Below are positions 1 through 47,621 of a stretch of 64,000 bases of DNA, one piece after another. The notes below the pieces were generated by a model. That model did not search any database. It was not told where the DNA came from and saw only the letters and a list, made by a program, of their open reading frames with translations. Source of the stretch: Chitinophaga oryzae (GTDB lineage: Bacteria > Bacteroidota > Bacteroidia > Chitinophagales > Chitinophagaceae); NCBI RefSeq assembly GCF_012516375.2, contig NZ_CP051204.2, forward strand, positions 7,502,001 to 7,566,000. Reading direction: 5' to 3'. Within the stretch, counting starts at the first letter, position 1, and each line of letters opens with the position of its first letter. Made by a program: the position numbers and the translations under genes.

Positions 1-1372
1 CGATACGGCTGTCTCTCAGGGTATAGCTGCGGCCGAGGCTGAACTGGTAGTTCTGTCCGGGAGCTGCGCGATAGGTGCGGGTCCCTATCCTGTCCAGGCC
101 GCCGATCCTTTTGTTCTGGGCTGCGATCATTTCAGGGGTTACTTTTTCAATACCCGCCGGCGGGATATGATTATAGGGATTTTTAGGATCGTAATTTCCG
201 GGCGTGAGCGTGAGGATCTCTTTGGGAAAATGATTCCGGCCACCGTCATCAAACCCAAGGTAATCATTCTTTCCCCGTTGGTAACCCATAAACTCTTTGC
301 CGGTACTGCCGCTGATGTATTTACTCCCCACGCTGACAGTAGTGAAATTATTGTCAGCGATGGCCATCGTATTGATCTGTACCATTCCTCCGCCAAAACC
401 AAATCCCATATCAGAAGTAGCCGTTTTTGATACCACAACGTTATCCACCAGGTTACTGGGCACGATGTCAAATTCGAAGTCGCGTACCTGTACATCTGTG
501 CTGGGCAGGGCGGCGCCGTCCATCATGGCCATGTTATATCGTTCAGCAATACCGCGTACCACCACCCGCCTGTTGTCGGTGGTGCTGACACCGGAAATAC
601 GTTTCAATGTCTCCCCGATGTTTTTATCGGGTAAGGCAGCCATCTGCTCATGGCTGATGCCGTTGATGATACCGGCTTCGTTTTTCTGACGGCTGTATAA
701 GGCGGCTGTAGTTTCCTTTCTGACAGAGGATTTTACCACTACCGTCGCCAGGTTGCCTCTCTGCCGCTTCAGCGTAGCGTTCAAGGTAAACGTTTCGTTT
801 TCATGGATGGCCACGCCACTTACCTCCTTGGCGCCATATCCCATGGACCTGATCATCACGGTGTAGCGGCCCTGAGGCAGGGGCAGTGAAAAATTACCGG
901 CATCGTCTGTAATTGCGCCTGCTTCGCCGATGCGGATGGTAGCGCCAATCACAGGGTCACCGTTTTCCTCGTCTATGACTTTGCCGGTAAGGCGTCCTTT
1001 CTCTTTTTTAACGGGAGCGTCTTTCTCTTTTTCAAACAATACAATTCCTCCGGCTACTTCTTTATACCCGACATTCGCCTGTTGCAATAAATACTGCAGG
1101 ATTTCAGACAGGTCCGCCTGCTTAAACTCTTTCGGGGAAACGTTCCATTGCGATAGTTGTAATTTTCCTGCGTCGTATGCTATATTCACCGGGCTGGCCT
1201 CTTTCACCTGCCGCATGGCAACATCCAATGCCACATTTGTAAACCGGATAGATAATTTTACTTTTCCGGGCGCCTGTGCCTTTAGCCCGGATACCGCCAG
1301 CAGCAGCCAACACATCGTCAGCACAAGCCTTCGTTTGGTCAGGGCCAATGTCCCTGTTCCTTTTTTTTCCAT
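1..1372 (-). CDS. TonB-dependent outer-membrane receptor with STN signalling domain (5' part, cut by window edge)
   Basis: The reading frame is open from an ATG at 1372 to the window edge (457 codons seen); the C-terminal beta-barrel lies outside. Residues 1-34 are a signal peptide ending KAQA. Residues about 36-110 resemble the STN domain (LSIRFTNVALDVAMRQV), which passes the signal to a FecR protein. Residues about 125-205 are a carboxypeptidase-regulatory-like beta domain (GKVIDEENGDPVIGATI). A plug domain follows, with RISGVSTTDNRRVVVRGIAERY and the conserved DFEFDIVPS stretch. It is the last visible gene of a sigma/FecR/receptor unit on this strand, 100 bp after fecR. The substrate is unknown. 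No SusD gene is visible, but one could lie beyond the edge. Confidence 0.88.
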   Translation of the reverse strand, partial: MEKKGTGTLALTKRRLVLTMCWLLLAVSGLKAQAPGKVKLSIRFTNVALDVAMRQVKEASPVNIAYDAGKLQLSQWNVSPKEFKQADLSEILQYLLQQANVGYKEVAGGIVLFEKEKDAPVKKEKGRLTGKVIDEENGDPVIGATIRIGEAGAITDDAGNFSLPLPQGRYTVMIRSMGYGAKEVSGVAIHENETFTLNATLKRQRGNLATVVVKSSVRKETTAALYSRQKNEAGIINGISHEQMAALPDKNIGETLKRISGVSTTDNRRVVVRGIAERYNMAMMDGAALPSTDVQVRDFEFDIVPSNLVDNVVVSKTATSDMGFGFGGGMVQINTMAIADNNFTTVSVGSKYISGSTGKEFMGYQRGKNDYLGFDDGGRNHFPKEILTLTPGNYDPKNPYNHIPPAGIEKVTPEMIAAQNKRIGGLDRIGTRTYRAAPGQNYQFSLGRSYTLRDSRI

Positions 1373-1471
1373 ACCTTTATGATTGATTTTTTTAGATGGT
1401 AATGTTGCTTTCGTCAAAAAATGGCATTACCGGAATGTTTGGCAAATCCCGTTACCAGCGGGATTTTGCTT

Positions 1472-2419
1472 TTAATATAAGGTGATTGTTTTTCCCTGTA
1501 TTTTGTAGCGTATACCGTGTACTTCCGCAAGGGTGGCGATAATGTCGCTGACGGAAGTCTTTCGGATAAAGAATTTAGCATCGTAATGCTGATTGCGGAT
1601 GTTTACATCGGAGGTCACCAACGTTACGCCATATATTCCCTGTAGCTCATTGGCCAGTTCGGAGAAGGTGGCAGCTTCCAGCAGCAGAATACCGTCGCGC
1701 CAGCCCAGTGCCTGTTTCCAATGGAGGCTGTCAACACGGAAATGGCCATCGTTGATATTCCATTGCAGTCTTTTCCCTTTAGACAGTTCCGTTAGTACCT
1801 GCACACTGTCGCTCACCTGTACCCGTCCCTGTTGTACCCATACCTGTATGGCAGGGCGGTTACGATATGCCTGCACATTGAAGGCGGTGCCCAGCACCTT
1901 TGTTTCAAGTTTGCCTGCTTTTACGATGAATGGCCGGGTCTCGTCATTTTTCACTTCAAAGAATGCCTCTCCTTCTATCAGGTCCAGGCGCCTGTTTTGT
2001 TTTCCATATTGGGAACTGTATTGAATAGTGGTACCGGATTTCAGCCATACCTGGGTACTATCGGGCAACAGGAACTGTCTGATTTCGCCGGAAGGGGCTG
2101 TTATTGTAAAACAGGTAACGGGTTGCTTATCGTGATTCACCAGGAAAAACCAGGAAGCGCCGATCAACAACGACGCCATACATGCGGCAGCCACTATCCG
2201 GCCACGCATGGGCACTACCTTCTTTTGGCTTATCTGCTCCAGGATCTGTAAATGAATACTTCCCTTGATGGCGCTTCTTTTCCCTTCCTGCTGCCAAAGC
2301 CCGATCGGCTTTATATCGTCCACCGAATGATACCAGTCGTCAACAAGCTTGTCCTGCTCCTTGTTTGTCTTCCCCGCTAAATAATGCCGAAGTAGTTTTA
2401 ACCGGTTGTGTAGTTTCAT
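1472..2419 (-). CDS. FecR-family anti-sigma factor
   Basis: The 315-residue protein has the usual FecR layout. A cytoplasmic N-terminal helical part binds sigma, and one membrane segment lies at about residues 73-93 (VAAACMASLLIGASWFFLV). The periplasmic FecR domain at about 105-205 carries LLPDSTQVWLKSGTTIQY and GEAFFEVKNDETRPFIV. The C-terminal DUF4974-type domain (about 245-315) contacts the receptor's STN domain. It sits between its sigma factor (92 bp upstream) and the receptor gene, the normal cell-surface signalling order in Bacteroidota. It probably holds the sigma factor inactive until the receptor is occupied. Confidence 0.93.
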   Translation of the reverse strand: MKLHNRLKLLRHYLAGKTNKEQDKLVDDWYHSVDDIKPIGLWQQEGKRSAIKGSIHLQILEQISQKKVVPMRGRIVAAACMASLLIGASWFFLVNHDKQPVTCFTITAPSGEIRQFLLPDSTQVWLKSGTTIQYSSQYGKQNRRLDLIEGEAFFEVKNDETRPFIVKAGKLETKVLGTAFNVQAYRNRPAIQVWVQQGRVQVSDSVQVLTELSKGKRLQWNINDGHFRVDSLHWKQALGWRDGILLLEAATFSELANELQGIYGVTLVTSDVNIRNQHYDAKFFIRKTSVSDIIATLAEVHGIRYKIQGKTITLY

Positions 2420-2511
2420 ATAACAGTCCTCCTGTTATGTACATACCGGTTAGGGCCTGTAGTACTATCCTTTTAATGTTACCAAATTGTAAACTCCCGG
2501 AACGGGCATGG

Positions 2512-3090
2512 TTACAGGATAAAGGGCAGGTAAACCGACTGGCCCTGCAGCCGTAAACGAAGCCGTTTGAGGGCGTTGTGGACCTGGTTTTTGACCGTCT
2601 GTTCCGAAATAGACAGTCGCAGCGCTATCTCCCTGACGGATAGCTCTTTTTCATAGCTGAGTATAAAGACTTCCCGCATCTTATCCGGCATGGAAGCGAT
2701 TTCCCACCGGACTTTTTCTCTCAATGCGTCAAATTCGTAATGATCCTGTTTTCTTTGTTCTGCTTCGTCGGGCAGGCTGTAAACGGACAATGGTAAATCC
2801 GTGGTGCCCTGTTTGGCTTCCCGGTAAATATGGCGTATAACACTGTATTTTAAAGCAGTAAACAAATAGGGGCTTAACTTATCTTCAACGGTTATCTGTT
2901 GCCGGTTCTCCCAGGCGTGAATAAAGATGTTCTGTACAAAATCCTTGGCCGTCGCCTCGTCGGCCAGCCTGCGGTAGGCCATGGAAAACATTTCATCCCA
3001 ATACCGTTCAAACAAACATGAAAACGACGCTGTATCTCCCCGTTTTACCTGTTGCCATAAGGCGGCATCATTTAATGTACTTCTATCCAT
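2512..3090 (-). CDS. ECF RNA polymerase sigma factor, FecI-like
   Basis: The 192-residue protein has the two ECF domains. Region 2 lies at about residues 25-70 (LFERYWDEMFSMAYRRLADEATAKDFVQNIF in part), and region 4 at about 130-180 contains a helix-turn-helix (LSVREIALRLSISEQTVKNQ). It should direct transcription of the adjacent receptor genes when released by the FecR protein encoded downstream. The start is an ATG at 3090. A Bacteroidota-type -7 box lies 21 bp upstream. Confidence 0.94.
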   Translation of the reverse strand: MDRSTLNDAALWQQVKRGDTASFSCLFERYWDEMFSMAYRRLADEATAKDFVQNIFIHAWENRQQITVEDKLSPYLFTALKYSVIRHIYREAKQGTTDLPLSVYSLPDEAEQRKQDHYEFDALREKVRWEIASMPDKMREVFILSYEKELSVREIALRLSISEQTVKNQVHNALKRLRLRLQGQSVYLPFIL

Positions 3091-14785: not shown

Positions 14786-14828
14786 GGTAACGGGGGGAGT
14801 CGTCCCTCCGTTACCGCCTATACGTTTT
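14786..14828 (+). terminator. Terminator after groEL
   Basis: An inverted repeat (GGTAACGG at 14786-14793 paired with CCGTTACC at 14808-14815, with further pairing inside) is followed by a short T-rich stretch at 14823-14827. It lies 10 bp after the groEL stop and just before the stop of the convergent methyltransferase, so it may serve both. Confidence 0.6.
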
Positions 14829-36266: not shown

Positions 36267-39200
36267 ATGGTTTTCAACATCCGTACCAGGAGTAATACTG
36301 ACCAGTTCAGACCTGGTATCCTGAGATTGTCACTCACGGCAGCGCTCTCCTTGCTCCTGCTGCTCCTATGCCATTCCCGGACGCTCGCAGCGGCCGACAC
36401 GCTACGTGTAACCGGCACCGTTACCGACAGTACCGGCGCTCCTATGCCGGGGGTGCTGGTGAAAGTAAACGGCACCTCACAGGCTACCACCACCGACGCC
36501 TCCGGACACTTCCTGCTGAAACAGGTGCCGGCAGGCGCCACCATCCTGTTCAGCATGATGGGCTATCTGCCGCAGGAAGTAAAAGCCGGCAGCACCCCGC
36601 TGTATATCCGCCTGCGGCCAGGCGTCCGGCTGCTGGACGAAGTAGTGGTCACCGACGGCTACCGCGTCACCACCCGCGCCGCCAACACCAGCGCCATCGG
36701 CACCATCAGCGGCCAGGCACTGGAAAACAAACCTTTTTCCACCTTCATGCAAAGTATGCAGGGAAAAATAGCAGGCGTATCAGCGCCACTTACCAGCGGC
36801 CAGCCCGGCGCCAATGTCAGCATCCGTATCAGGGGCGTAGGGTCGCTCTCCCTCTCCTCCGATCCGCTGATCGTGGTAGATGGCATGATTGTCAATTCCG
36901 GCCAGCTCTCCGGCGCCGTGACCACCTCCAACGCCCTCGCCGGCATCAACCAGAACGACATCGAAAGCATCGACGTACTGAAAGATGCCGCCGCCACCGC
37001 GCTGTATGGCTCCCGCGGCAGCACCGGCGTGATCGTCATCACCACCAAAAGAGGTAAAACGGGAAAAACACAGGTCAGAGCCGACGCCGAAGGCGGCGTA
37101 GCCAGCCAGCTCCCACTCCCGCATGCCGGCCGTCCGCTCAACGCTGCGCAATACGCCGAACTGTTCCGCGAAGGCCTGCGCAACTCCGGTTATACAGATG
37201 CGCAGATCACCGACCTCGCTGATAAATATGGGCTCAACAGCGGAAAAAGCAACGACTGGTACGACCTCGTGACCCGCACCGGCCGTCAGCAACAGTACAA
37301 CGTTAGCCTCAACAGCGGCACCGAAAAAACAAAACTGTTCGCCTCCGCCGGTTATTTCGATCAACAGGCCACCACCATCGGCGCAGACTTCAAACGCATC
37401 TCCGGCCTCATTAACTTCGATCACCAGATCAACAAACGTTTTCTGCTGTCTGCCGGCGTCAACGTATCCAATGTAGACCAGAACACCCCCTATAGCACCC
37501 AGTACTCCGGCAACCCCACCTGGGCAGCACGCGCACTGCGTCCTTTCCAGCTCGCCTACAACGACAATGGCGCCGTAAACACCGCCACCGCCGGCAATAC
37601 TAATTTTCCGGGCATCTACAATCCTTTGTGGATCGCTGAAAACGATAGTAAACGACTGTCCGAAACGAGAATGCTCGGCAATGCCAAACTCAAATGGAAC
37701 ATCTGGGACAAACTTGTATACACCAGCTACTTCAGCATCGATTATAACACCATGGAGGAAACCATCTTCCTTAACCCGGTCATGGGCGACGGCGTTTCCG
37801 CCGGCGGCACCAGCAAAAACTACTATTCCCGCTACACCAACTGGCTTACCCGCAACCAGCTGGACTATCGTTATGATATTCCGGGCTATGATAATTTTTA
37901 CGTGACCGCCTCCGTCGGTTACGAGGCACAGAAATCCAAAAAATACCTGCTGGCAGCCGTCGGCAGCGGATTCCCTTCCTCCCATGAAGACCTCACCGCA
38001 CTGAGTAACGCTGCCACGCCAACAGGCGCCTATGGCCAGTTCAGCAACTACGCCTTTACATCGCTGTATTCCAGCGCGGGCATCAACTACCGCAACAAAT
38101 ACGCGCTCAACGGCTCCTACCGGAGAGACGGCTCTTCCCGGTTCCCGTCCAACAACCGCAACGCAGGCTTCTATTCCATCGGTGGCACCTGGAACGTGCA
38201 TGAAGAAAACTTCTTTCAGCAGCAACAGATACTGTCATCCCTGAAAATCCGTTCCTCCTACGGCACCACCGGCAATGCCAACCTCGGCAACTATGACTGG
38301 ATGCCGCAGGCCAGCTACAGTAGTTCGTATAGCTATGCAGGTTATAACGGAAGCCAGTATTCCATCGTCGGCAACACCGACCTGCGCTGGGAGACGTCCA
38401 AAAAATTCGATGCCGGCGCCGATATAGGTTTTAACAACGATCGTTTCATGCTGACCATCGATTACTACTACAACAACATCGATGGCCTTATCCGCGCGGT
38501 GAACACCTCCCTTACCACCGGCTTCGGCGCTGTCAGCCAGAACGTTGGCGCTATGGTCAACAAAGGATGGGAATTCACCATCAAAGGCGATGTGCTGAAA
38601 TACAAGCATTTCAACTGGTACGCCAATTTCAACCTCGCGCTGAATAAAAACGAGATCACCCGCTTACCCAAAGGCACACTGGAACGCAATGATATGTTCT
38701 ACCTGAAAGAGGGCTACAGTTTCAACAACTACTACCTGAAAGAATTCGCAGGAGTAGACCCGCAAACCGGCAGTCCCATGTACTATACAGACGGCGGGCA
38801 TTCAGCCACCACCACCGATATCTCAAAAGCCTCCTACGTGATACAGGACAAACAATCTGTACCCAAATATGCAGGCGGATTCAATAACACTTTTACCTAT
38901 AAAGGCATTAGTCTTAGTGTAGATTTCAATTACAACCTCGGCTATTGGGTATACGGCGCTTCCGACATCTATTTCACCTCCGGCGCCTACTACACTTACA
39001 ACAAATACCAGTTTATCTACGACAGGCGCTGGACAACACCCGGACAGCAAACCGATGTGCCCAAATTCAGTACCACCACCGATAATTCCGTAAGCACGTA
39101 CCGGTTGTACCGCGGTGATCATATCCGTTTGCAAAACATCAGCATCGGTTATGATTTCAGCCAGCTGCCGCTGGCGAAACGTGTAGGCGTCAACAAGCTG

Positions 39201-39347
39201 TATGTATATGGCAGGGGCACTAACCTGTGGACCAAAACGTTCGACGACCGTCTGCCTTTTGATCCGGAAGTCAGCTATTCCGGCTTCGATTACCAGAACA
39301 TGCAGAAATACAAAACATTCACTTTCGGGATTAACGTAGGATTTTAA
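36267..39347 (+). CDS. SusC/RagA-family TonB-dependent transporter
   Basis: A 1026-residue transporter without an STN domain. A signal segment (SLTAALSLLLLLLCHSRTLAAA) precedes the carboxypeptidase-regulatory-like domain (VTGTVTDSTGAPMPGVLVKVNG), LLDEVVVTDGYR, and the plug (VSIRIRGVGSLSLSSDPLIVVDGM in part; IDVLKDAAATALYGSRGSTG). The barrel ends TFTFGINVGF. With no STN domain, it should be regulated by something other than sigma/FecR. It partners the SusD protein encoded 10 bp downstream and probably imports oligouronides released by the divergent lyase. Confidence 0.95.
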   Translation: MVFNIRTRSNTDQFRPGILRLSLTAALSLLLLLLCHSRTLAAADTLRVTGTVTDSTGAPMPGVLVKVNGTSQATTTDASGHFLLKQVPAGATILFSMMGYLPQEVKAGSTPLYIRLRPGVRLLDEVVVTDGYRVTTRAANTSAIGTISGQALENKPFSTFMQSMQGKIAGVSAPLTSGQPGANVSIRIRGVGSLSLSSDPLIVVDGMIVNSGQLSGAVTTSNALAGINQNDIESIDVLKDAAATALYGSRGSTGVIVITTKRGKTGKTQVRADAEGGVASQLPLPHAGRPLNAAQYAELFREGLRNSGYTDAQITDLADKYGLNSGKSNDWYDLVTRTGRQQQYNVSLNSGTEKTKLFASAGYFDQQATTIGADFKRISGLINFDHQINKRFLLSAGVNVSNVDQNTPYSTQYSGNPTWAARALRPFQLAYNDNGAVNTATAGNTNFPGIYNPLWIAENDSKRLSETRMLGNAKLKWNIWDKLVYTSYFSIDYNTMEETIFLNPVMGDGVSAGGTSKNYYSRYTNWLTRNQLDYRYDIPGYDNFYVTASVGYEAQKSKKYLLAAVGSGFPSSHEDLTALSNAATPTGAYGQFSNYAFTSLYSSAGINYRNKYALNGSYRRDGSSRFPSNNRNAGFYSIGGTWNVHEENFFQQQQILSSLKIRSSYGTTGNANLGNYDWMPQASYSSSYSYAGYNGSQYSIVGNTDLRWETSKKFDAGADIGFNNDRFMLTIDYYYNNIDGLIRAVNTSLTTGFGAVSQNVGAMVNKGWEFTIKGDVLKYKHFNWYANFNLALNKNEITRLPKGTLERNDMFYLKEGYSFNNYYLKEFAGVDPQTGSPMYYTDGGHSATTTDISKASYVIQDKQSVPKYAGGFNNTFTYKGISLSVDFNYNLGYWVYGASDIYFTSGAYYTYNKYQFIYDRRWTTPGQQTDVPKFSTTTDNSVSTYRLYRGDHIRLQNISIGYDFSQLPLAKRVGVNKLYVYGRGTNLWTKTFDDRLPFDPEVSYSGFDYQNMQKYKTFTFGINVGF

Positions 39348-39357
39348 ACCACTGACC

Positions 39358-40803
39358 ATGAAGAAATACCATAAACATAAATGGTTGCTGCTACTGGTGG
39401 CCGCCACCACCCTGATAAGCGCCTGCGGCAAACAGTTCCTCGATGAACAGCCCCCTACTTCCGTTTCCATAGAGAAAGGTATTCTCACCGATACAGATAT
39501 GATGGAAGCGCTGGCCGGCCTGTACAGAAACCTCGACAACTATTTCCTTTTCGGCCGCAATGCGGTCGTATTCGGTGACCTGCTGGCGGATAACGTATAC
39601 CTCAGCAGCACCAATTCCAGCCGCCTCCTGACGCAATACAGTTATACATTTATCGTATCCAGCCCGGAAACCAGGTTGCTGTGGGCGCAGAGCTATTACA
39701 GCATCCTGCAGGCCAACAGGATCATTGGCGCCCGTATCAATATCAACAATAACGTCAACCAGTTAAGAGGCGAGGCTTATACCCTCCGGGCGTTGTGCTA
39801 CCTGAACCTTGTCAACTGGTTCGCTACGCCATACACCGTGAGGCCTTCCGCCGACGGGGTGCCGCTGGTCACTCTCTCCACCGATGTAGGCGGCGCCTTT
39901 ATCAAACCGGCACGCAACACGGTTGCCCAGGTGTATGATCAGATCATCAGCGATCTGGACAGCGCCTATCAGATCATGCCCGACGCCACTCCATCCATCC
40001 ATACCGCCAGCTCCAACTTCATCACCAAACAGGCCGTAAAAGCCTTACAGGCGCGTGCCTACCTGTACAAAGCCGATTATGCCAAAGCCCGCGACGCCGC
40101 CCTGCTGGTGGTGAAGAACGGCGGCTATACGCTGGCGGCCGACGCCGGCAGCTTTAACGCCTACTGGTCATCCTCCGCCGCACGCACCGACAAGCTGGAG
40201 ACCATTTTTGAACTGAACAACTCCGCCGCCGCCAACAACGGTCCGGAAGGAATGGATTACATGTACTCCCGCAACGGCCTGGGCGACCTGCTCGTCACCG
40301 ATGACACCTATGCCCTTTATACGGCCACGGACAAACGCCGTTCACTGATCATCGACAGCCTCCGTGGCGGCTATCAGGCGTATATTGTCAACAAATACCA
40401 GAATGCCGGTAAAACAGACAAGGACGAAGTTAAGCTGCTACGCTATGCAGAAGTACTGCTAACACTGGCTGAATCCTACGCCAGGCTGGGCGACGAAGCT
40501 AACGCCCTGCTTTATCTGAATAAAGTGGCACAAAACCGCGATGCCGCACTGGCGCCCTACACCTATAGCGGCCCTGCACTGACCGATGCCATCCTGCTGG
40601 AAAGACGCAAAGAGCTGGCCTTTGAAGGACTTCGTTTTTTTGACCTTACCCGTACCAACGCAGAAATACACCGTCAGAACATGGGCGTAAAAGGCTATAC
40701 CAGTTATCCTACCGTAAAAACCACCGACTTCAGAAGGCTGCAGCCCATCCCTGAAGTGGAAACAGGGGCTAACCCAAATATCGCCCAGAATCCGGGCTAC
40801 TAA
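39358..40803 (+). CDS. SusD/RagB-family glycan-binding lipoprotein
   Basis: A 481-residue lipoprotein (lipobox TLISAC). It has SusD helices (SYYSILQANRIIGA; LRGEAYTLRALCYLNLVNWFATPY in part) and the family ending RRKELAFEGLRFFDLTR...LQPIPEVETGANPNIAQNPGY. It binds substrate on top of the SusC barrel. A terminator follows. Confidence 0.95.
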   Translation: MKKYHKHKWLLLLVAATTLISACGKQFLDEQPPTSVSIEKGILTDTDMMEALAGLYRNLDNYFLFGRNAVVFGDLLADNVYLSSTNSSRLLTQYSYTFIVSSPETRLLWAQSYYSILQANRIIGARININNNVNQLRGEAYTLRALCYLNLVNWFATPYTVRPSADGVPLVTLSTDVGGAFIKPARNTVAQVYDQIISDLDSAYQIMPDATPSIHTASSNFITKQAVKALQARAYLYKADYAKARDAALLVVKNGGYTLAADAGSFNAYWSSSAARTDKLETIFELNNSAAANNGPEGMDYMYSRNGLGDLLVTDDTYALYTATDKRRSLIIDSLRGGYQAYIVNKYQNAGKTDKDEVKLLRYAEVLLTLAESYARLGDEANALLYLNKVAQNRDAALAPYTYSGPALTDAILLERRKELAFEGLRFFDLTRTNAEIHRQNMGVKGYTSYPTVKTTDFRRLQPIPEVETGANPNIAQNPGY

Positions 40804-40874: not shown

Positions 40875-41516
40875 TTACAGCAAACGGGGTAATTCCTTCA
40901 TCGAATAAAACACCTCCGCACCCGCCGCTTCCAGATAACCCGCACTGTGTTCACTGGCATATCCCAATGCACGGAACCCGCCTGCTTTAGCGGCTTGTAT
41001 GCCGGCAAGGCTATCTTCCACCACAACGCAGTCGGCAGGCGGATAACCCATGGTAGCAGCAGCGTGCAGGAAAATACCAGGGTCCGGCTTCCAGCTGTTG
41101 ATCGTATAGGCGCTGAATATTTTCCCTTCAAAAAAAGGCAGCAGTCCCGTCAACCGCAGGTTCAGCTCTATCTTCTTCACCGGGCCGCTGGACGCCACAC
41201 AGAAAGGCAGCGTGAGCTGCTCCAGTACTTCCCGGATACCTTCTACCGGCTTTACTTCTTTTTCAAACAGCGCGTAAGAACGGGTACGGTACTGCTCAAT
41301 AAAATCATCCGCGAAGGGGCGGTCAGTCAGCGCCTGCAGCGCAGCTACAGACTCCGCCAGGTTTCGGCCGCTCATAAAACGGACAGCCTCCCCTTCATCC
41401 ATAGTGACGCCGTATTCCGCTGCCAGCCCCAGTAACACGCGGATACCAATAATTTCACTGTCTACCAGTACACCATCGCAATCAAATATGACGCATCTTA
41501 TCTTGTTAGTCTTCAT
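40875..41516 (-). CDS. HAD-family phosphatase (beta-phosphoglucomutase-like)
   Basis: A 213-residue HAD hydrolase. Motif I is VIFDCDGVLVDSE (nucleophile Asp and acid Asp), and a helical cap follows at about 20-85. Motif II is VASSG, motif III is the Lys in WKPDPGIF, and motif IV is VVVEDSLAGIQAA. Sequence layout matches the sugar-phosphate phosphatase / beta-phosphoglucomutase group. The physiological substrate is unknown; a sugar phosphate is plausible beside the lyase locus. Confidence 0.9.
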   Translation of the reverse strand: MKTNKIRCVIFDCDGVLVDSEIIGIRVLLGLAAEYGVTMDEGEAVRFMSGRNLAESVAALQALTDRPFADDFIEQYRTRSYALFEKEVKPVEGIREVLEQLTLPFCVASSGPVKKIELNLRLTGLLPFFEGKIFSAYTINSWKPDPGIFLHAAATMGYPPADCVVVEDSLAGIQAAKAGGFRALGYASEHSAGYLEAAGAEVFYSMKELPRLL

Positions 41517-41593
41517 ACAACTGTCGTTCGGACCATAAAGATAATTGTGGTACGGTTATTTCTTGCATTCATCCATCACCCAATACCAGTGTT

Positions 41594-41920
41594 ATGAAAA
41601 TCATGCTTATGCTAATGGCAGCCATCCTGATAAGCAGCTGTGCCACCACCTACAATAGCCGTTTCACTTCCGCTGAGGTAAAACCGGGAATAAGTACACA
41701 AACCGTCATTGCCCGCTTTGGAAAGCCTTTTAAAAAAAGCTTCGAGCAAATCGGGGATGTACTGTACGAAGATTTTTACTACAAGGAAACCATTTATAAG
41801 GACCACTGGTTTGAGATCAACAACATCCTGCATTTCCAGGATGGGAAGCTCGTTTCCCTCGAGCAGGGCGAAGAGAGAAAGTTGTATCAACCGGCCCCGG
41901 TAGTCAGGGCGCAAAAGTAG
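41594..41920 (+). CDS. Small predicted lipoprotein
   Basis: A 108-residue protein. The signal peptide ends in the lipobox ISSC (Cys16). The mature part has one compact domain (VKPGISTQTVIARFGKPFKKSF), like the short beta-lactamase-inhibitor-like/SmpA-type modules, where G-x-P after a helix is typical. The role is unknown, perhaps envelope upkeep. It converges with the MNIO gene 12 bp away. Confidence 0.7.
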   Translation: MKIMLMLMAAILISSCATTYNSRFTSAEVKPGISTQTVIARFGKPFKKSFEQIGDVLYEDFYYKETIYKDHWFEINNILHFQDGKLVSLEQGEERKLYQPAPVVRAQK

Positions 41921-41932
41921 TCTTCAGCCAAT

Positions 41933-43066
41933 TCAGGGGTTTGTTGTTTTCCGCTTCCATTTCTGTGCAATCTTCGCCGCCGTCTCAATCATAGCCGGGT
42001 CCCAGCTTTCTATCTGCCAGTCGGAATGCGCCAGGGAAGACGCTTGCAGCGCCTTCATGGTTGCGCCGAAAGAAGCCGCCGTTTCCAGGATCTGCGACAG
42101 CTCCAGCTGCTGCCGGTACAACGTTTCGTCTTCCTGCGCTTGTGCCGGTATCTGCAGGGCTTCCGGCAGGAAACTATTCAGCGGAACAGTGCTCTTGTTT
42201 TTGTTATTGAGGAGCTGGTCCATCCGGAGGAAATCGTTGCGAAAGGCTGACCGGCTTTCCTCGCTGGCCAGCCCGGAGCCCAGCTGCTCCAATACCACGT
42301 ATTTGAGAGAGGGACACAGGTCTATCGCTTTATCGAGATAGTTAAAGACCGTTGCGGGTACGGCATCATCGTGGGTATCGCGGCGGATGGTCTTGCCCGG
42401 CGTGGCTTCCGACTCGTCCCAGCTGCCGCCGGAGATATGTATTTCCCGGACGCGGTGCAGCGGATACAGGTCTTTCAGCGCTTCAAAAGAAAGATCGAAG
42501 TTATGGGCCTGACAGTAGAGGTTATGCAGGTCGAGGATGACAAAGCCGTTGACCGGTTCCAGTAGCTCGTTGAGGAAATCACCGTGTCTTTTCACTTCTT
42601 CCAGCGAATAGGAGAAAGCCAGGTTCTCCAGTCCTACCGGGCATCCGCAGGCATCCTGCATACGTTTCAGCCGATCGCGCCCGATACCGAGGGTTACCGG
42701 CGTATAGGGAATATTTAATGGTGCGCCGTGGTGAAAGTCCTTACCTGTCATAAAGCCAAAGTGCTCGGTCACATGATCGAAGCGGTAATGACGGCTGACG
42801 GTCTTCAGATGGTCCAGCCACTGTTGTTGTTCCGGTAACCATCTCCCGGAAAAAAGAGAGAAAAAGACACCATGACCGATCAATCTGTTTTCTTCGCTGA
42901 AGACGTTCAGCAGCTCTTCAAACCAGGCAGGCACGTTCTCTACGGCATACAGCGCATCGAAAGACCATTCGATGGCTTCAACCTTGGCCGCCTCCATCAA
43001 AGGAAGGCAGGCGGCCAGGATGTTGTTGTCTAGATTACAGGCGACTGTTGAAACTAATTTCGACAC
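41933..43066 (-). CDS. DUF692/MNIO peptide-modifying iron enzyme
   Basis: About 377 residues from GTG 43066 (alternatives TTG 43084 and GTG 43096 overlap the precursor gene). The DUF692 TIM-barrel metal ligands are all visible: His65 (LIGHGVFFS), Glu101/His102 (VTEHFGF), Glu147/Asn148 (GLENLAF), Asp179/His181/Asn182 (LDLHNLY), Glu208/His210 (EIHISGG), Asp230/His232/Asp233 (DTHDDAVP) and Glu260 (VVLEQLGSG). Such multinuclear non-heme iron oxidative enzymes modify Cys or C-terminal residues of ribosomal peptides. About 95 residues beyond the barrel (285-377) are mostly helical and may replace a separate partner protein. Two CPACGMG peptides are encoded directly upstream on the same strand. Confidence 0.9.
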   Translation of the reverse strand: MSKLVSTVACNLDNNILAACLPLMEAAKVEAIEWSFDALYAVENVPAWFEELLNVFSEENRLIGHGVFFSLFSGRWLPEQQQWLDHLKTVSRHYRFDHVTEHFGFMTGKDFHHGAPLNIPYTPVTLGIGRDRLKRMQDACGCPVGLENLAFSYSLEEVKRHGDFLNELLEPVNGFVILDLHNLYCQAHNFDLSFEALKDLYPLHRVREIHISGGSWDESEATPGKTIRRDTHDDAVPATVFNYLDKAIDLCPSLKYVVLEQLGSGLASEESRSAFRNDFLRMDQLLNNKNKSTVPLNSFLPEALQIPAQAQEDETLYRQQLELSQILETAASFGATMKALQASSLAHSDWQIESWDPAMIETAAKIAQKWKRKTTNP

Positions 43067-43080
43067 AATGCACGTTTTAA

Positions 43081-43251
43081 TCAACCCATACCGCACGCGG
43101 GGCAGCCGTCGGGGAATCTTTTCTTAAATTCTTCTTCCTGTTTTTTCTTTTCTTCCTGCGCTGTAGGAAGCTTTTCTTTTTTACACGATGTGGCAGTTTG
43201 CAGGGTGAGTCCCACCAGGATAGCTCCCAGTAATGATTTTGGCAATTTCAT
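43081..43251 (-). CDS. RiPP precursor peptide 1, ends CPACGMG
   Basis: A 56-residue frame, starting ATG 43251 and ending TGA at 43081, 14 bp before the chosen MNIO start. The N-terminus is signal-peptide-like: Lys-rich, then SLLGAILVGLTLQTA, then Cys23. A Lys/Glu linker follows, and the end is GCPACGMG. The core therefore has two Cys in CxxC spacing plus Gly-Met-Gly. It shares leader and core with precursor 2. The CPACGMG end is, as I recall, the hallmark of chryseobasin-type (ChrA) precursors; this is from memory. The gene is too short for most gene finders. Confidence 0.85.
   Translation of the reverse strand: MKLPKSLLGAILVGLTLQTATSCKKEKLPTAQEEKKKQEEEFKKRFPDGCPACGMG
43085..43110 (-). repeat. 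26-bp exact repeat encoding the precursor core (copy 1)
   Basis: These 26 bp, which encode the DGCPACGMG end of precursor 1, are identical to 43363-43388 in precursor 2. Identity at synonymous positions points to recent duplication or gene conversion of the core. Confidence 0.9.
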
Positions 43252-43358
43252 AAATTAAAGGTTTGTAATAATGAATAATACTACAGCGCTGTATATGTAT
43301 GAAACGAAGCCATGCGGTAAAAGTTACAGTGATCTTCTGCTAGATAACCTGCCAGGCC

Positions 43359-43556
43359 TCAGCCCATACCGCACGCGGGGCAGCCGTCACCTGCCAGCTG
43401 CGGCTTCGATGTATCTTGTTTTGCAGGAACCGAATCGCTTTTTACTTCTTTTTTCTCCTCTTTGGTGGCAGGAGCTTTGGGTGCATTACAGGAAGGGGCA
43501 GCTTGGAGGGTAATACCCGCCAGAATAGCTCCTAACAACGATTTCGACAGATGCAT
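43359..43556 (-). CDS. RiPP precursor peptide 2, ends CPACGMG
   Basis: A 65-residue frame from ATG 43556. The N-terminus (SKSLLGAILAGITLQAA, Cys23) matches precursor 1 at most positions. The charged linker is longer and different, and the end is GDGCPACGMG. The last 26 bp of similarity (43363-43388) are identical to 43085-43110 in precursor 1. It lies 107 bp upstream of precursor 1 on the same strand. The conserved ends and variable middle fit a leader/linker/core peptide and a tandem duplication. Confidence 0.85.
   Translation of the reverse strand: MHLSKSLLGAILAGITLQAAPSCNAPKAPATKEEKKEVKSDSVPAKQDTSKPQLAGDGCPACGMG
43363..43388 (-). repeat. 26-bp exact repeat encoding the precursor core (copy 2)
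   Basis: The second copy of the core-encoding 26-bp segment, inside precursor 2. The flanking bases diverge immediately on both sides. Confidence 0.9.
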
Positions 43557-43617
43557 AATTTGGGTTTTTAAATGAATGAAAATATTTAACCGTTAAACGA
43601 AATAACGGGGCAAAATG

Positions 43618-44592
43618 TTACCCTTTGAATTTACCCGGAGACACCCCGAATCTTTTGCGGAAAGCTGTACTGAAATTATTGGGGCTGGTATATCCCAGCA
43701 GGTAGGCCACCGTGCTGACCTGCTCCCCTTCCTGCAACATTTTCCGTGCTTTCTCCATCCGGAGGTGGTGGATGTAACCGAATACGGTATCCCCAAACTC
43801 ACTTTTAAAACCATTTTTCAGTTTGAAGATGTTTAACCCGGCCTGACGGCTCAGTTTCCGGAGAGAATGGTCCGTTTCCGGCTCTTTATCTATGAGCTCT
43901 TTAATGAAATAGAGCTTCTCTATATCCTGGGAACTTTGCAACAGGTAACCGCAGCCTTTGCCGGGGAACTTATCCCGGAACGCTTCCGTTTGTAACATAA
44001 ACAGCTCCAGCACCCTGGCTTCCATCAGCATTTTACCGAAATAGCCGGTACGCCTGGAAGTGATCATATCGGTCAGCACAGAGAGCATTTGCGGCGTTAC
44101 ATGCAGCATCCCGGTGTCTTCCAGCTTCATCTCATTGCGGGCCAGCTGTTTGAGCAGCGCGGTATGTACCGTACATTCCTCGTGGGAGATCGACTCAAAA
44201 TAATGCCGGTCAAACAGAATATCCACCTTCACCAACGGGTGTTCGCCGGTTTGGTATTCGAAGTGGGTAGACAGTTTTTCGGGCACAGGGAAAAGGCTGT
44301 GTTGCAGCGCCGCTACCTGTACCGGTTTCCGGAGTTCATCATTACGGGCCACAAACCGGCCACTCATGGAAAAATGCATCTCCACGCAGGACCTGCCGGC
44401 GCGCAGCTCCACGGCAGTACGCCTCGAAACCGACAGATGGCTGTAATTGATCTCAAATCCATCCAGAACGGTATGTTCAAAGGTGCCCTGCAGCCCGGAT
44501 TCCGGCGACAGCATATAAGCTGCCTGCCGGTAATTCTTTGCTTTGTCTTCCCTGACTAAAGTAGCATGTGGTAATAAAGCTTCGAGGTACAT
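43618..44592 (-). CDS. AraC-family regulator, PchR-like
   Basis: A 324-residue regulator. The N-terminal effector domain (about 1-215) has FEINYSHLSVSRRTAVELRAG-type strands and VEMHFSMSGRF, as in PchR-type regulators of iron/siderophore genes. The C-terminal double HTH (about 225-324) contains HSLRKLSRQAGLNIFKLKNGF and VAYLLGYTSPNNFSTAFRKRFGV. It is divergent from the MFS efflux gene (96 bp) and directly upstream of the RiPP precursors on the same strand, so it could control either or both. Confidence 0.88.
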   Translation of the reverse strand: MYLEALLPHATLVREDKAKNYRQAAYMLSPESGLQGTFEHTVLDGFEINYSHLSVSRRTAVELRAGRSCVEMHFSMSGRFVARNDELRKPVQVAALQHSLFPVPEKLSTHFEYQTGEHPLVKVDILFDRHYFESISHEECTVHTALLKQLARNEMKLEDTGMLHVTPQMLSVLTDMITSRRTGYFGKMLMEARVLELFMLQTEAFRDKFPGKGCGYLLQSSQDIEKLYFIKELIDKEPETDHSLRKLSRQAGLNIFKLKNGFKSEFGDTVFGYIHHLRMEKARKMLQEGEQVSTVAYLLGYTSPNNFSTAFRKRFGVSPGKFKG

Positions 44593-44688
44593 ACGGTAAA
44601 ATTAAACATTATCCCTTTAGCATACTTTTTTATCCTTTTATCAAACGCTTCCCGGCGGCTGCCTGCCGAGATTTGCCCTTAAAAAAAG

Positions 44689-46260
44689 ATGACACAGTCA
44701 GATACCATGACAGAATACGGGATGCGGCGGGTCATTATCACGCTCACCGCTATGCTGTGCGCCATTCTGGAACTGCTGGACACCACAATTGTCAATGTGG
44801 CCCTGAACGACCTGCAGGGAAATCTGGGCGCCACCCTCTCTGAAGTCAGCTGGGTAGTGACAGCCTACGGTATCGGCAATGTGATCCTGATCCCGATGAC
44901 CAGCTGGCTGTCCCGGCAATTTGGCCGCCGCAACTATTTTGCGGCTTCCATCTTCCTGTTTACGCTCTGTTCACTGCTGTGCGGCATGGCCGGCAGCATC
45001 CCTGAGCTGGCGTTGTTCCGCTTTCTGCAGGGCATCGGCGGCGGCGCCCTGCTGGCTACTTCGCAGACAATCATCACAGAGTCCTATCCCGTTGAAAAAA
45101 GAGGAACGGCCAACCTCATCTTTATGATGAGCGTCATTGTGGGTCCGGCTATGGGGCCGCTCATCGGCGGATACATCATCGACCACTACAGCTGGCCGCT
45201 GATTTTCTACATCAATGTCCCGCTGGGCATCCTCGCCATCCTGCTGACATTACAATATGTGCGGTCACCCAGCTATGACAATAAGCTGCCGGCCGCCGAT
45301 GTGGACTGGCCGGGCATTGTATTGCTGACCGTTATGGTAGGCTCCCTGCAGTATGTGCTGGAAAAGGGACAGGAGGAAGACTGGTTCAGCAACCGTACCA
45401 TCATCACCCTGTCTGTCACCGCCGGCATCGGCGCCATATTGTTCATCTGGCGAGAGCTGTCCTGCTCCCATCCCATCGTTTCCCTCAGGGTGCTTCGCAA
45501 CAGGAACCTGGCAGCCGGCACCGCTTTCTCGTTCATCTATGGCTTCGGGTCGTACGGGTCAACGTTTATCGTGCCGCTATTTACGCAGTCGCAGCTCAAC
45601 TGGCCCGCCACCGACGCAGGGCTGCTGGTATGCCTTACCTCCCTTACCAGCCTGCTGATCTTTCCGCTGACCAACAAGCTGTTAAAGTCCGGCGTCAAAC
45701 CACAATACATGATGAGCTGCGGCATGATCATCTTCTTTGCGAACTGCTATATGAGCGCCCACATCCTCACGCCGGAAACCGGCTTTCAGACATTCTTCTG
45801 GGTGCTGATATTCCGGTATTTCGGACTTAACATGATCCTGTTGTCCATCAGCGCCATCGCCTTTTCCACCTTACAGACACGGGAGATAGCAGAAGGCGCC
45901 GCCTTTACCGGCATGACGCGGCAACTGGGCGGGTCCTTCGGCATCGCCATCATCACCACTTTTATTGTCCGGAGAAACATGCTGCATCGCGGGCAATTGC
46001 TCTCGCACCTGAGCGCAGACGAGCCGGGCATGCTGGCACGGCTGCATCAGACTACGCAGGCCTTTAAAGCCCAGGGCTTCCAGGAAGATGTTGCCACCGG
46101 TCATGCACATAAACTGCTGGATATGGTCGTCCTCAAACAATCTACTTTATTGTCTTACATGGATGTCTACATCGTTATCGGTTTTCTCTTTCTCAGCTGT
46201 GTGCCTTTTATCCTGTTACTGAAAAACGGAAAAGCAGCCGCCGTTGCGGATGCTCACTGA
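44689..46260 (+). CDS. DHA2-family MFS multidrug transporter (EmrB-like)
   Basis: A 523-residue inner-membrane protein with 14 predicted helices. The DHA2 signature LDTTIVNVALNDL is near residues 27-39, and motif C-like glycines are in VGPAMGPLIGGYIIDHYSW. It is an antiporter driven by the proton gradient. The next two genes encode an outer-membrane channel and a membrane-fusion protein, so the three form an EmrAB-TolC-type tripartite pump. The substrate is unknown; drugs, or the peptide of the neighbouring RiPP locus, are both possible. Confidence 0.93.
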   Translation: MTQSDTMTEYGMRRVIITLTAMLCAILELLDTTIVNVALNDLQGNLGATLSEVSWVVTAYGIGNVILIPMTSWLSRQFGRRNYFAASIFLFTLCSLLCGMAGSIPELALFRFLQGIGGGALLATSQTIITESYPVEKRGTANLIFMMSVIVGPAMGPLIGGYIIDHYSWPLIFYINVPLGILAILLTLQYVRSPSYDNKLPAADVDWPGIVLLTVMVGSLQYVLEKGQEEDWFSNRTIITLSVTAGIGAILFIWRELSCSHPIVSLRVLRNRNLAAGTAFSFIYGFGSYGSTFIVPLFTQSQLNWPATDAGLLVCLTSLTSLLIFPLTNKLLKSGVKPQYMMSCGMIIFFANCYMSAHILTPETGFQTFFWVLIFRYFGLNMILLSISAIAFSTLQTREIAEGAAFTGMTRQLGGSFGIAIITTFIVRRNMLHRGQLLSHLSADEPGMLARLHQTTQAFKAQGFQEDVATGHAHKLLDMVVLKQSTLLSYMDVYIVIGFLFLSCVPFILLLKNGKAAAVADAH

Positions 46261-46292: not shown

Positions 46293-47621
46293 ATGAATGC
46301 AATTAAAACAGGACGGGTGCTCTTATACCTGTCGCTTGTCCTCTGGTGGCCTCTTCGGCACAACGGGCAAACACCAGTGCTCCTTCTCGACAGCGCCATT
46401 AACAGGGGACTGGCCCACAGCCATACGCTACGGCTGGACAAGGCCGCTATCACCGCTTCCATACAGCGGTACCAGCAGGCAAAAGATGCCAGTCTCCCCA
46501 CCGGCAGCATCAGCGCTACTTTCAGTCATATGGAAGTGCCGGCAGACCATATTGAGCTGGGCAGCCTCGACTGGACGCTGGGCAAACGCGGCGAAACCTA
46601 CATGGCCCATGCAGGTATCAAACAAACTATCTACGAAGGCAACAAGCTCCGGTATGCCCGGAAATCCGCTTTGCTGCTTCTGCAATTGTCCAACCTGGAC
46701 CTGGAACAGCATACCACGGAAGTAGCCTATGCTATCGCGGAGCTATACCACGACCTGTATAGAATCCATCGTCACCTGCAGGTATCACAACAACAGGCGC
46801 AGGCTGTCGACAGCCTGGTGCGGCAAGCCACTGATCTGTACGAACAGGGTATTGTCACCCAAAATGATGTTTTGCGTTTCAGGCTGCAACGCTCGGAAAT
46901 ACAAATAGCCCGTACACAACTGGAAGCAGAACGCCGTACCATACAATACAGCCTCAATGTATTGCTGGGTTTCCCGGAAGACACGGTAGTAACACCTGCA
47001 CCGGTACAACCGCCGTTCCAGGCCGGCAATACACTGGACACCTTTCTGGCCCAGGCCTTCCGGCAGCGGCAGGAACTGAAACAGTCAACCGTACAGTACT
47101 CACTGGACCAGTACCATCTGCGCAGCCTCAAAGCAGAACAACTGCCCACTCTTTCCGGCAGTATCACCGCTGACTATATTCATGCAGGCGCTGCTTTTAT
47201 CCCGCCGGCAGGCTCCTATCTGACACCTATCTCGGCAGGCGTCACGGTAGCCTGGAACTTCTCTTCGCTATGGTCTGCGCGGCATCAGATTTCTCAGGCG
47301 AAGGTCCGGCAGGACCAGACGCTGATCCTGCGCGACCAGCTGAAAGAGCACATACGCCAGGAAGTAAATGCCTGCTACCAGCGCTACGAACAAGCCGTTC
47401 AGACGATACTCCTGCTGCAATCGGCAATTGAGCAGGCCGCAGAAAACAACCGTATACAATCGGACCGCTATCAGTACAACACCACTTCTGTCACCGATCT
47501 GATCGATGCCAACAGCCGCTTGTATCAGGCGATGGCCAACATAGAAATAGCACGTTCTGACGCCAGCCTCGCATGGTTCCGGTTATTAAAAGCCACCGGT
47601 AGTATTACAACATCCTACTAA
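46293..47621 (+). CDS. TolC-family outer-membrane efflux protein
   Basis: A 442-residue protein with a signal peptide (about 1-25) and two homologous halves of long amphipathic helices (LDKAAITASIQRYQQAKDASLPTGSIS; AVDSLVRQATDLYEQGIVTQNDVLRFRLQRSEIQIARTQLEAE in part). This is the TolC trimeric-channel layout. It lies 32 bp downstream of the MFS gene. Confidence 0.92.
   Translation: MNAIKTGRVLLYLSLVLWWPLRHNGQTPVLLLDSAINRGLAHSHTLRLDKAAITASIQRYQQAKDASLPTGSISATFSHMEVPADHIELGSLDWTLGKRGETYMAHAGIKQTIYEGNKLRYARKSALLLLQLSNLDLEQHTTEVAYAIAELYHDLYRIHRHLQVSQQQAQAVDSLVRQATDLYEQGIVTQNDVLRFRLQRSEIQIARTQLEAERRTIQYSLNVLLGFPEDTVVTPAPVQPPFQAGNTLDTFLAQAFRQRQELKQSTVQYSLDQYHLRSLKAEQLPTLSGSITADYIHAGAAFIPPAGSYLTPISAGVTVAWNFSSLWSARHQISQAKVRQDQTLILRDQLKEHIRQEVNACYQRYEQAVQTILLLQSAIEQAAENNRIQSDRYQYNTTSVTDLIDANSRLYQAMANIEIARSDASLAWFRLLKATGSITTSY

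Follow-up and report, generated by a model that had tools for sequence, protein, structure and literature searches.

What two short lipopeptides with one and the same tail, encoded beside the enzyme that would modify them, do for their producer, and when they are made, are the questions raised by a small locus of the soil bacterium Chitinophaga oryzae. The locus lies in a 64,000-nucleotide stretch, hereafter the window (positions 7502001-7566000 of a single-contig genome of 8.36 Mb, called G000 in this study), and consists on its minus strand, in the order of transcription, of precursor 1, precursor 2 and an MNIO (DUF692) enzyme of the type that acts on ribosomally synthesized and post-translationally modified peptides (RiPPs). 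With a probability of roughly 0.75, these genes are a minimal cassette of the DAG-RiPP kind, that is, two lipopeptides and a partner-independent MNIO, and the modified lipopeptide would be made on demand within an envelope (lipoprotein) response governed by an extracytoplasmic function (ECF) sigma factor. The regulatory link is the new part; the kind of locus is already known and its chemistry predictable. The features are the following.

43593..43622, minus strand: predicted ECF-type promoter of precursor 1, GGTAACATTT-N13-CGTTTAA (motif; sequence)
43359..43556, minus strand: precursor 1 (type I), 65 amino acids, lipobox AAPS-C23, tail GCPACGMG (NF050125; type I loci set apart by one branch of the MNIO tree)
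43488..43490, minus strand: codon of the lipobox Cys23 of precursor 1, predicted lipid attachment (corresponding Cys in 42 precursors)
43362..43385, minus strand: predicted modification site GCPACGMG of precursor 1 (sequence)
43300..43328, minus strand: predicted ECF-type promoter of precursor 2 and probably of the MNIO, TGTAACTTTT-N12-CGTTTCA (motif; sequence)
43081..43251, minus strand: precursor 2 (type II), 56 amino acids, lipobox TATS-C23, tail GCPACGMG (NF050125; orthologues in relatives)
43183..43185, minus strand: codon of the lipobox Cys23 of precursor 2, predicted lipid attachment (corresponding Cys in 42 precursors)
43084..43107, minus strand: predicted modification site GCPACGMG of precursor 2 (sequence; in DybA the -4 Da change falls here, PMC12636315)
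41933..43066, minus strand: ChrH/DybH-type MNIO, 377 amino acids, GTG start at 43066 (PF05114 and NF050165 matches; start by relatives; AlphaFold2 model; Foldseek)
41933-43096, minus strand: extent of the open reading frame (ORF) of the MNIO
41942..42262, minus strand: predicted C-terminal helical domain of the MNIO, about residues 269-375 (helices of the model; domain in ChrH described by PMC12636315)

A first clue lies in the control regions. A ChrH-type MNIO match above 200 bits is present in 39 of 79 Chitinophaga genomes (the G064 copy is broken), and each of the 39 loci has a precursor ending in C[P/I]xC[G/S]MG at most 400 nucleotides (nt) upstream, 42 precursors altogether; among the CPxCGxG-stop matches of the Chitinophaga genomes without such an MNIO there is no CGMG tail. 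GTAAC-N16/17-CGTT lies upstream of 41 of the 42 precursors, 61-134 nt before the start codon and at both window precursors, the sole precursor without it being the type I copy of G040. The strict form, GTAACNTTT, precedes 35 of the 42 and was found once elsewhere in 1.38 Mb of the same loci on both strands, and the GTAACATTT form is common to the promoter of precursor 1 and the type I copies of G013, G019, G076 and G077. AAC and CGT cores at such a spacing are the layout of an ECF sigma promoter. A -35-like AAC and a -10-like CGT/GTC core at fixed spacing, conserved upstream, were found here, and GTAAC-N16/17-CGTT is predicted to be an ECF-sigma-type promoter, one for each window precursor. 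In Flavobacterium, a CGT -10 box has been assigned to an ECF sigma (PMC9723704). The literature search gave nothing recognised as this promoter or tying chryseobasin-type RiPPs to a sigma factor, and in the main text of PMC12636315 the words “promoter” and “regulat...” are absent and “sigma” occurs only as the name of a supplier. A near-palindrome at 14787-14814 of the window also fits the GTAAC...CGTT spacing, on both strands, and is perhaps a hairpin and a chance match.

The box extends beyond the RiPP genes. The pattern TGTAACYTTTN12/13CGTTTNA occurs in 76 of the 79 Chitinophaga genomes (0-6 sites each), and the reversed pattern used as control gives 0 or 1 per genome and strand; because 39 of the 40 genomes without the ChrH-type MNIO carry sites, the regulon is independent of the RiPP. 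Examined were 91 sites of G000-G040, that is, 31 in 30 loci and 60 stretches with other non-RiPP sites of G001-G040, a set that leaves out further RiPP sites and the genomes after G040. By an automatic lipobox rule 74 of the 91 precede a lipoprotein gene, and 69 of 86 still do when the five RiPP sites are removed; in the matched control the same rule labelled 82 of 515 pseudo-sites before other genes (a first background, 53/581, was unfairly low with its one start per ORF and gave way to this control). Taken by rule and by eye together, the 82 regulon lipoproteins form 22 sequence clusters, 10 of them single, and of ten regulon proteins compared with Pfam four scored above the cut-off (LVIVD in two, FKBP_C, DUF4136) and six had no match. 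At L118 (G011:C2, ~214461-215044) two tandem box-controlled lipoproteins of 116 amino acids carry a Cys-rich YC(L/A)ACSC segment.

A related box precedes the cassette in other genera. An unsupervised two-block search over 57 other-genus loci, with the distal precursor of each and after one near-duplicate and one precursor-less locus had been dropped, gave the motif gCAACCtTT-N13-xGTCtT at 95% occupancy, with a log-likelihood of 240 versus 76-89 in six dinucleotide-shuffled sets (120 starts for the real set, 40 per shuffled set). When the 59 loci not named Chitinophaga, largely the training set, were scored against 300 random windows, fifty passed the 95% level. The pattern TTACAACC-N14-18-GTCWT gave 29 matches in six Dyadobacter genomes versus 22 for the reversed form; all of the 29 but L316, thus 28, could be parsed. 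At the RiPP spacing of 30 nt 12 of 17 parsed matches are intergenic, and with other spacings 1 of 11; seven of the 12 precede lipoproteins by rule, ten by eye. Among the genes that follow the Dyadobacter box are those of a lipoprotein with an FKBP-type prolyl isomerase domain and of another with DUF4136 (L321, L315), a hint at protein folding in the envelope.

The LVIVD-repeat lipoprotein, which has the box at six of the 91 Chitinophaga sites and at three Dyadobacter loci (one flagged as within an ORF; the two proteins compared between the genera are 37% identical), offers a test with genes other than those of the RiPP. A search for LVIVD-type proteins in other genera covered 21 records, of which 17 were positive with 28 matches. 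Removal of 11 rows that were fragments or split genes left 17 upstream regions, drawn from 16 genomes that are in part closely related. Scored with the motif learned only from RiPP loci and set against 457 gene-upstream controls, 16 of the 17 lie above the 95% level and 12 above the 99% level, and ten score at least 14, as none of the controls does. Moreover, in several cases the boxes vary by lineage in the same way before both kinds of gene: GCAAC...GCTC in Hymenobacter and GCAACG...GTCA in Niastella and Longitalea, the boxes of Pontibacter and Rufibacter matching less closely. Such lineage-matched boxes would be the pattern expected if one sigma per genome controlled the RiPP and LVIVD genes. 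Since the box precedes lipoprotein genes in Chitinophaga and its variant precedes LVIVD-type genes elsewhere, the peptide probably belongs to an ECF-controlled lipoprotein regulon.

As for the enzyme itself, it matches Pfam PF05114 with 102.7 bits (cut-off 25), and the BufB and HvfB models with 85.2 bits (cut-off 310) and 71.1 bits (cut-off 360), respectively, so that it falls outside the bufferin and oxazolin families. Its identity is 42% to two enzymes above the ChrH cut-off and 59-83% to enzymes of its own family, and its closest named relatives (the best 80 of 257 were analysed) come from Chitinophaga, the best being 91% identical (C. eiseniae). The key His, Glu, Asp and Asn positions are invariant across 17 aligned MNIOs, and within these columns stand H65, H102, E147, H181, H210, H232 and E260, which we take to be metal ligands. 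The AlphaFold2 model built from the 17-sequence alignment (mean pLDDT 88.3) is a TIM barrel with C-terminal helices at 269-287, 314-329, 333-341 and 357-375, and its top Foldseek matches are the TglH and MbnB structures; the helical domain is predicted to be the fused counterpart of a subunit that is separate in cyanobacterial relatives. The start of the gene is best read as GTG 43066, which lies 14 nt past the stop of precursor 2: the sequence around S(T/A)xACNLD is common to relatives, several of which have a stop codon a little way 5' of it. The precursor 2 and MNIO genes therefore need not overlap. No RNA family was found at gathering thresholds in 41000-45000.

Both short ORFs pass the NCBIfam model NF050125, “chryseobasin-related MNIO class RiPP peptide” (precursor 2 with 85.7 and precursor 1 with 64.0 bits, cut-off 40), and match the chryseobasin precursor model weakly, with 18.3 and 19.6 bits (cut-off 50). 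Both have a hydrophobic leader followed by [TP]SC23, as judged by pattern. Their 27-nt tail-encoding stretches differ at one base, and the DNA of the two GCPACGMG sites is identical except for the last Gly codon. The CPxCGxG-stop pattern has exactly two matches in the 8.36 Mb genome, both of them the window precursors; because it matches nowhere else, the pair is not a matter of chance, and unlinked substrates elsewhere in the genome were rejected on the same count.

The features readable from sequence that mark loci of the DybAH (Dyadobacter crusticola) and ChsAH (Chitinophaga sancti) type, the DAG-RiPP kind already described in a 2025 preprint (PMC12636315), were found here, namely an MNIO domain with a fused helical bundle, no partner gene, a CPxCGxG tail and a lipobox in a minimal cluster; ChsAH comes from the same genus. 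The window locus differs in having two divergent precursors, each with its own promoter. According to the same source, DybH acts on the CPACGMG tail alone and without a partner, giving a -4 Da macrocycle/hydantoin with a free thiol, and DybA is lipidated through its lipobox Cys and triacylated in E. coli; the ChsAH product is likewise -4 Da and unmethylated. The DybA-type group typically has no partner gene, a helper domain being fused C-terminally, and the discoverers give the function as unknown (PMC12636315). Chryseobasin (ChrAHI of Chryseobacterium; PMC10214503) shares the CPACGMG tail and a ChrH-family MNIO, whereas it has a signal peptidase I (SPI) signal, S-methylation and ChrI, ChrE and ChrP genes, in place of the lipoprotein signal of the window locus, and the ChrH-cut-off-passing enzymes are the two at 42% identity. 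The bufferins and oxazolins (BufABC, HvfABC; PMC12452194) are also MNIO RiPPs; lipoprotein signals occur in some of them, tandem precursors in some bufferin loci and sigma genes in Buf1 loci, but theirs is another MNIO subfamily with a separate partner, other Cys motifs and chemistry and, for bufferins, a copper role.

An earlier note, made from the letters alone, had recognised the enzyme and the two short precursor genes on the same strand and read them as an MNIO RiPP locus; PF05114, NF050165 and NF050125 bear this out at the same coordinates, as the invariant His, Glu, Asp and Asn positions do for the expected metal ligands, whose role stays putative. It was also right that chryseobasin precursors end in CPACGMG (PMC10214503). 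ChrH is the nearest family, though no cut-off of ChrH, BufB or HvfB is reached. The case that the note named as speaking against it, homologues lacking adjacent peptides of this kind, was decided in its favour, since a precursor ending in CxxC[G/S]xG accompanies the enzyme in every one of the 39 Chitinophaga loci and, of the best 80 named loci, in 79. What it saw as peculiarities proved ordinary: the Cys23 of the leader is the lipobox cysteine of DybA-type precursors and the missing partner gene is typical of that group (PMC12636315), and two or three precursors occur in 11 of the 80 named loci (the best 80 of 257 relatives).

Within Chitinophaga two precursors are present in 3 of 39 loci (G000, G040 and G076). 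A single branch of the MNIO tree (support 96/87; recovered in 98% of 200 bootstrap trees) sets the type I-bearing loci, of six species, apart from the others. Three of the six lack type II, and they fall on two separate branches; the simplest reading is therefore one gain of type I and two losses of type II, for which recombination between the near-identical tails would be a simple route. Natural variants of the core are CIACGMG (G014, G050), in which Ile replaces Pro inside the predicted macrocycle, and CPACSMG (G042), in which Ser replaces the Gly behind the macrocycle. Where loci of Taibaiella and a metagenome-assembled Bacteroidota genome (L270, L304, L254) have several precursors, the most distal one ends in CPPCGRG, CITCGRG or CIACGRG, which suggests diversified products.

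Put together, and going by the homologues, the MNIO would oxidise each CPACGMG tail in the cytoplasm by four electrons (-4 Da) to a macrocycle and hydantoin with one free thiol, whereupon export and the general lipoprotein pathway would lipidate Cys23 and remove the leader. The end product would be a lipid-anchored peptide, probably in the outer membrane. Through its own ECF-sigma-type promoter each precursor would be expressed alongside other lipoprotein genes, and in other Bacteroidota lineage variants of that promoter would serve the same cassette and the LVIVD-type lipoprotein gene. C-X-K-(D/E)2, the optimal export signal of Capnocytophaga (PMC5080379), is present in 14 of 41 rule-parsed precursors; of the other lipoproteins, 13 of the 69 in the regulon have it and 2 of the 53 remaining ones in the loci.

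A number of observations weigh against this account. The chemistry of the locus rests on homology, and the enzyme, with 390.3 bits to its nearest family, ChrH (NF050165), does not reach the 600-bit cut-off. Neither window precursor has the optimal surface-export signal, type II reading CKKEK and type I CNAPK. In the window's own genome the bare motifs are barely above reversed controls (15 versus 10 and 14 versus 10; of those 14 matches seven are intergenic besides the window's own site, most before exported or lipoprotein-like genes), and the regulon emerges only with a stricter form over many genomes, which are related and not independent, so that counts are inflated. Seventeen of the 91 sites do not precede a lipoprotein by the rule (11 precede a signal-peptide-like or unclear ORF, eight of these being lipoproteins by eye, and six neither). 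The exact Chitinophaga motif was rejected as promoter in other genera (0 of 68 precursors), so the link across genera is to a related, not identical, motif; nine of the 59 other-genus loci, including Taibaiella, Pedobacter and Fluviicola, do not exceed the random-window 95% level, and the RiPP precursors themselves account for five of the ten lipoprotein genes that follow the Dyadobacter box. Furthermore, the cognate sigma was not found among the 125 sigma-domain matches of the genome, and by eye no sigma-like gene is the first gene behind any of the 91 sites. An autoregulated sigma gene was rejected as well: for 30 sigma-domain loci, out of the 125 matches, the 600 nt upstream contain no strict site.

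The last of these points leads to a different explanation of the box, unlikely on the whole yet deserving some weight, as the operator of a transcription factor, or as the mark of several sigma factors, in place of one ECF sigma per genome. In Chitinophaga TGTAAC...GTTTNA forms a weak palindrome and no sigma gene is linked to it, but the spacing is fixed at 16/17 nt between AAC and CGT/GTC cores as in ECF promoters, the motif of other lineages has no palindrome, the box stands 61-134 nt before the Chitinophaga start codons, and lineage variants are common to RiPP and LVIVD genes in several genera. Control in common with many ordinary lipoproteins argues for an envelope role, and so against a secreted antibacterial whose macrocycle binds lipid II after protease release or in vesicles; this we hold to be quite unlikely, although the discoverers liken the macrocycle to the lantibiotic B ring (PMC12636315) and MFS and outer-membrane efflux genes adjoin the locus, for no neighbour is conserved with the cassette and the AraC and outer-membrane efflux genes recur in only 3 of 39 loci. 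About as doubtful is the view that the duplication has left one precursor behind as a remnant without function: type II is missing from half of the type I clade and the G040 type I copy lacks a strict promoter, but promoter, lipobox and the identical 8-residue tail are kept by both copies in the window and in G076, and type I is present in all six clade species.

Two further readings concern the product. MNIO products elsewhere bind copper, Buf1 loci carry sigma and anti-sigma (NrsF) genes (PMC12452194), and a free thiol could bind a soft metal, so the product might be a copper or iron metallophore like the bufferins and oxazolins, whose modified cysteines chelate metal at the cell surface. 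This is improbable, as the MNIO belongs to the wrong subfamily (85.2 and 71.1 bits for BufB and HvfB versus 390.3 for ChrH), the locus has no bufferin or EGKCG precursor, a separate HvfB-type locus exists elsewhere in the genome and the DybA product, as published, does not show the absorbance of chelating groups of the bufferin or methanobactin type (PMC12636315); with no neighbour family in more than 7 of 39 loci, the copper- or iron-binding role proposed by the earlier note is left unsupported. A true chryseobasin pathway, with an S-methylated (+10 Da) product exported without lipid, has the same tail motif and the weak precursor-model matches in its favour, and is highly improbable all the same: the MNIO lies below the ChrH cut-off and nearer its own family (59-83% versus 42% identity), the signal is that of a lipoprotein rather than SPI, no ChrI, ChrE or ChrP type match appeared among eight adjacent proteins, scanned between 40875 and 47621, and ChsAH of Chitinophaga gave an unmethylated product (PMC12636315).

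The cassette alone is conserved. When ORFs of at least 90 amino acids were clustered over the 39 loci, 37 of these yielded the MNIO family (the G064 copy being broken, and a shadow ORF having won the greedy call in G037), and no other family was widespread, the next reaching 7 of 39; no partner gene adjoins the MNIO. The neighbours were rejected as parts of the system because few of the loci repeat them: the AraC regulator (43618-44592) and the outer-membrane efflux gene (46293-47621) in 3 of 39, an adjoining 345-residue HlyD-like ORF (by eye) in 4, and the MFS-family and SusC/SusD-like (by eye, 36267-40803) clusters in 6 each. The genome has two other MNIO loci. One, L001 (G000:C1:2134746-2138528, 1037-3055), is oxazolin-like, with an HvfB-type MNIO (375.2 bits, cut-off 360), an HvfC-like partner (122.3 bits, cut-off 142) and a 128-residue precursor with CAQGKCAEGKC that matches HvfA weakly (17.6 bits versus 95). 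The other, L002 (G000:C1:8303915-8307757, 1148-2988), has an MNIO below every NCBIfam equivalog cut-off (BufB 157.6 of 310 bits), a 79-residue ORF with RGCQACLSG and no evident signal peptide, and a 205-residue protein without family match; it may resemble the CxxC “adjamnio-7” class of PMC12452194.

Envelope regulons of this sort have parallels; EcfO of Bacteroides fragilis, for instance, is said to be the ECF sigma of one. Das1/Dma1 and Das2/Dma2 (PMC13088901) likewise place envelope functions such as vesiculation under ECF sigma control. A bolder proposal, which we put forward tentatively and at somewhat less than even odds, is that a conserved stress regulon of lipoproteins under ECF-sigma control includes the DAG-RiPPs of Bacteroidota as structural or sensory components, in which case the thiol-hydantoin macrocycle, installed after translation, would be an outer-membrane envelope-stress effector. 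In this clade the duplicated second lipopeptide, whose residues after the lipobox Cys are mostly N-x-P-K without the K-acidic export-like residues of most other precursors, suggests that one peptide may lie at the surface and the other in the periplasm. If this bolder proposal is true, DAG-RiPPs are not stand-alone natural products. Because Bacteroidota clusters minimally contain precursor and enzyme only (PMC12636315), neighbouring genes tell little, and the shared promoter would be the first clue to the role of these peptides: it names candidate co-regulated genes, namely the LVIVD-type lipoprotein, the Dyadobacter FKBP-type lipoprotein and several lipoprotein families without known role, and it predicts induction under envelope stress.

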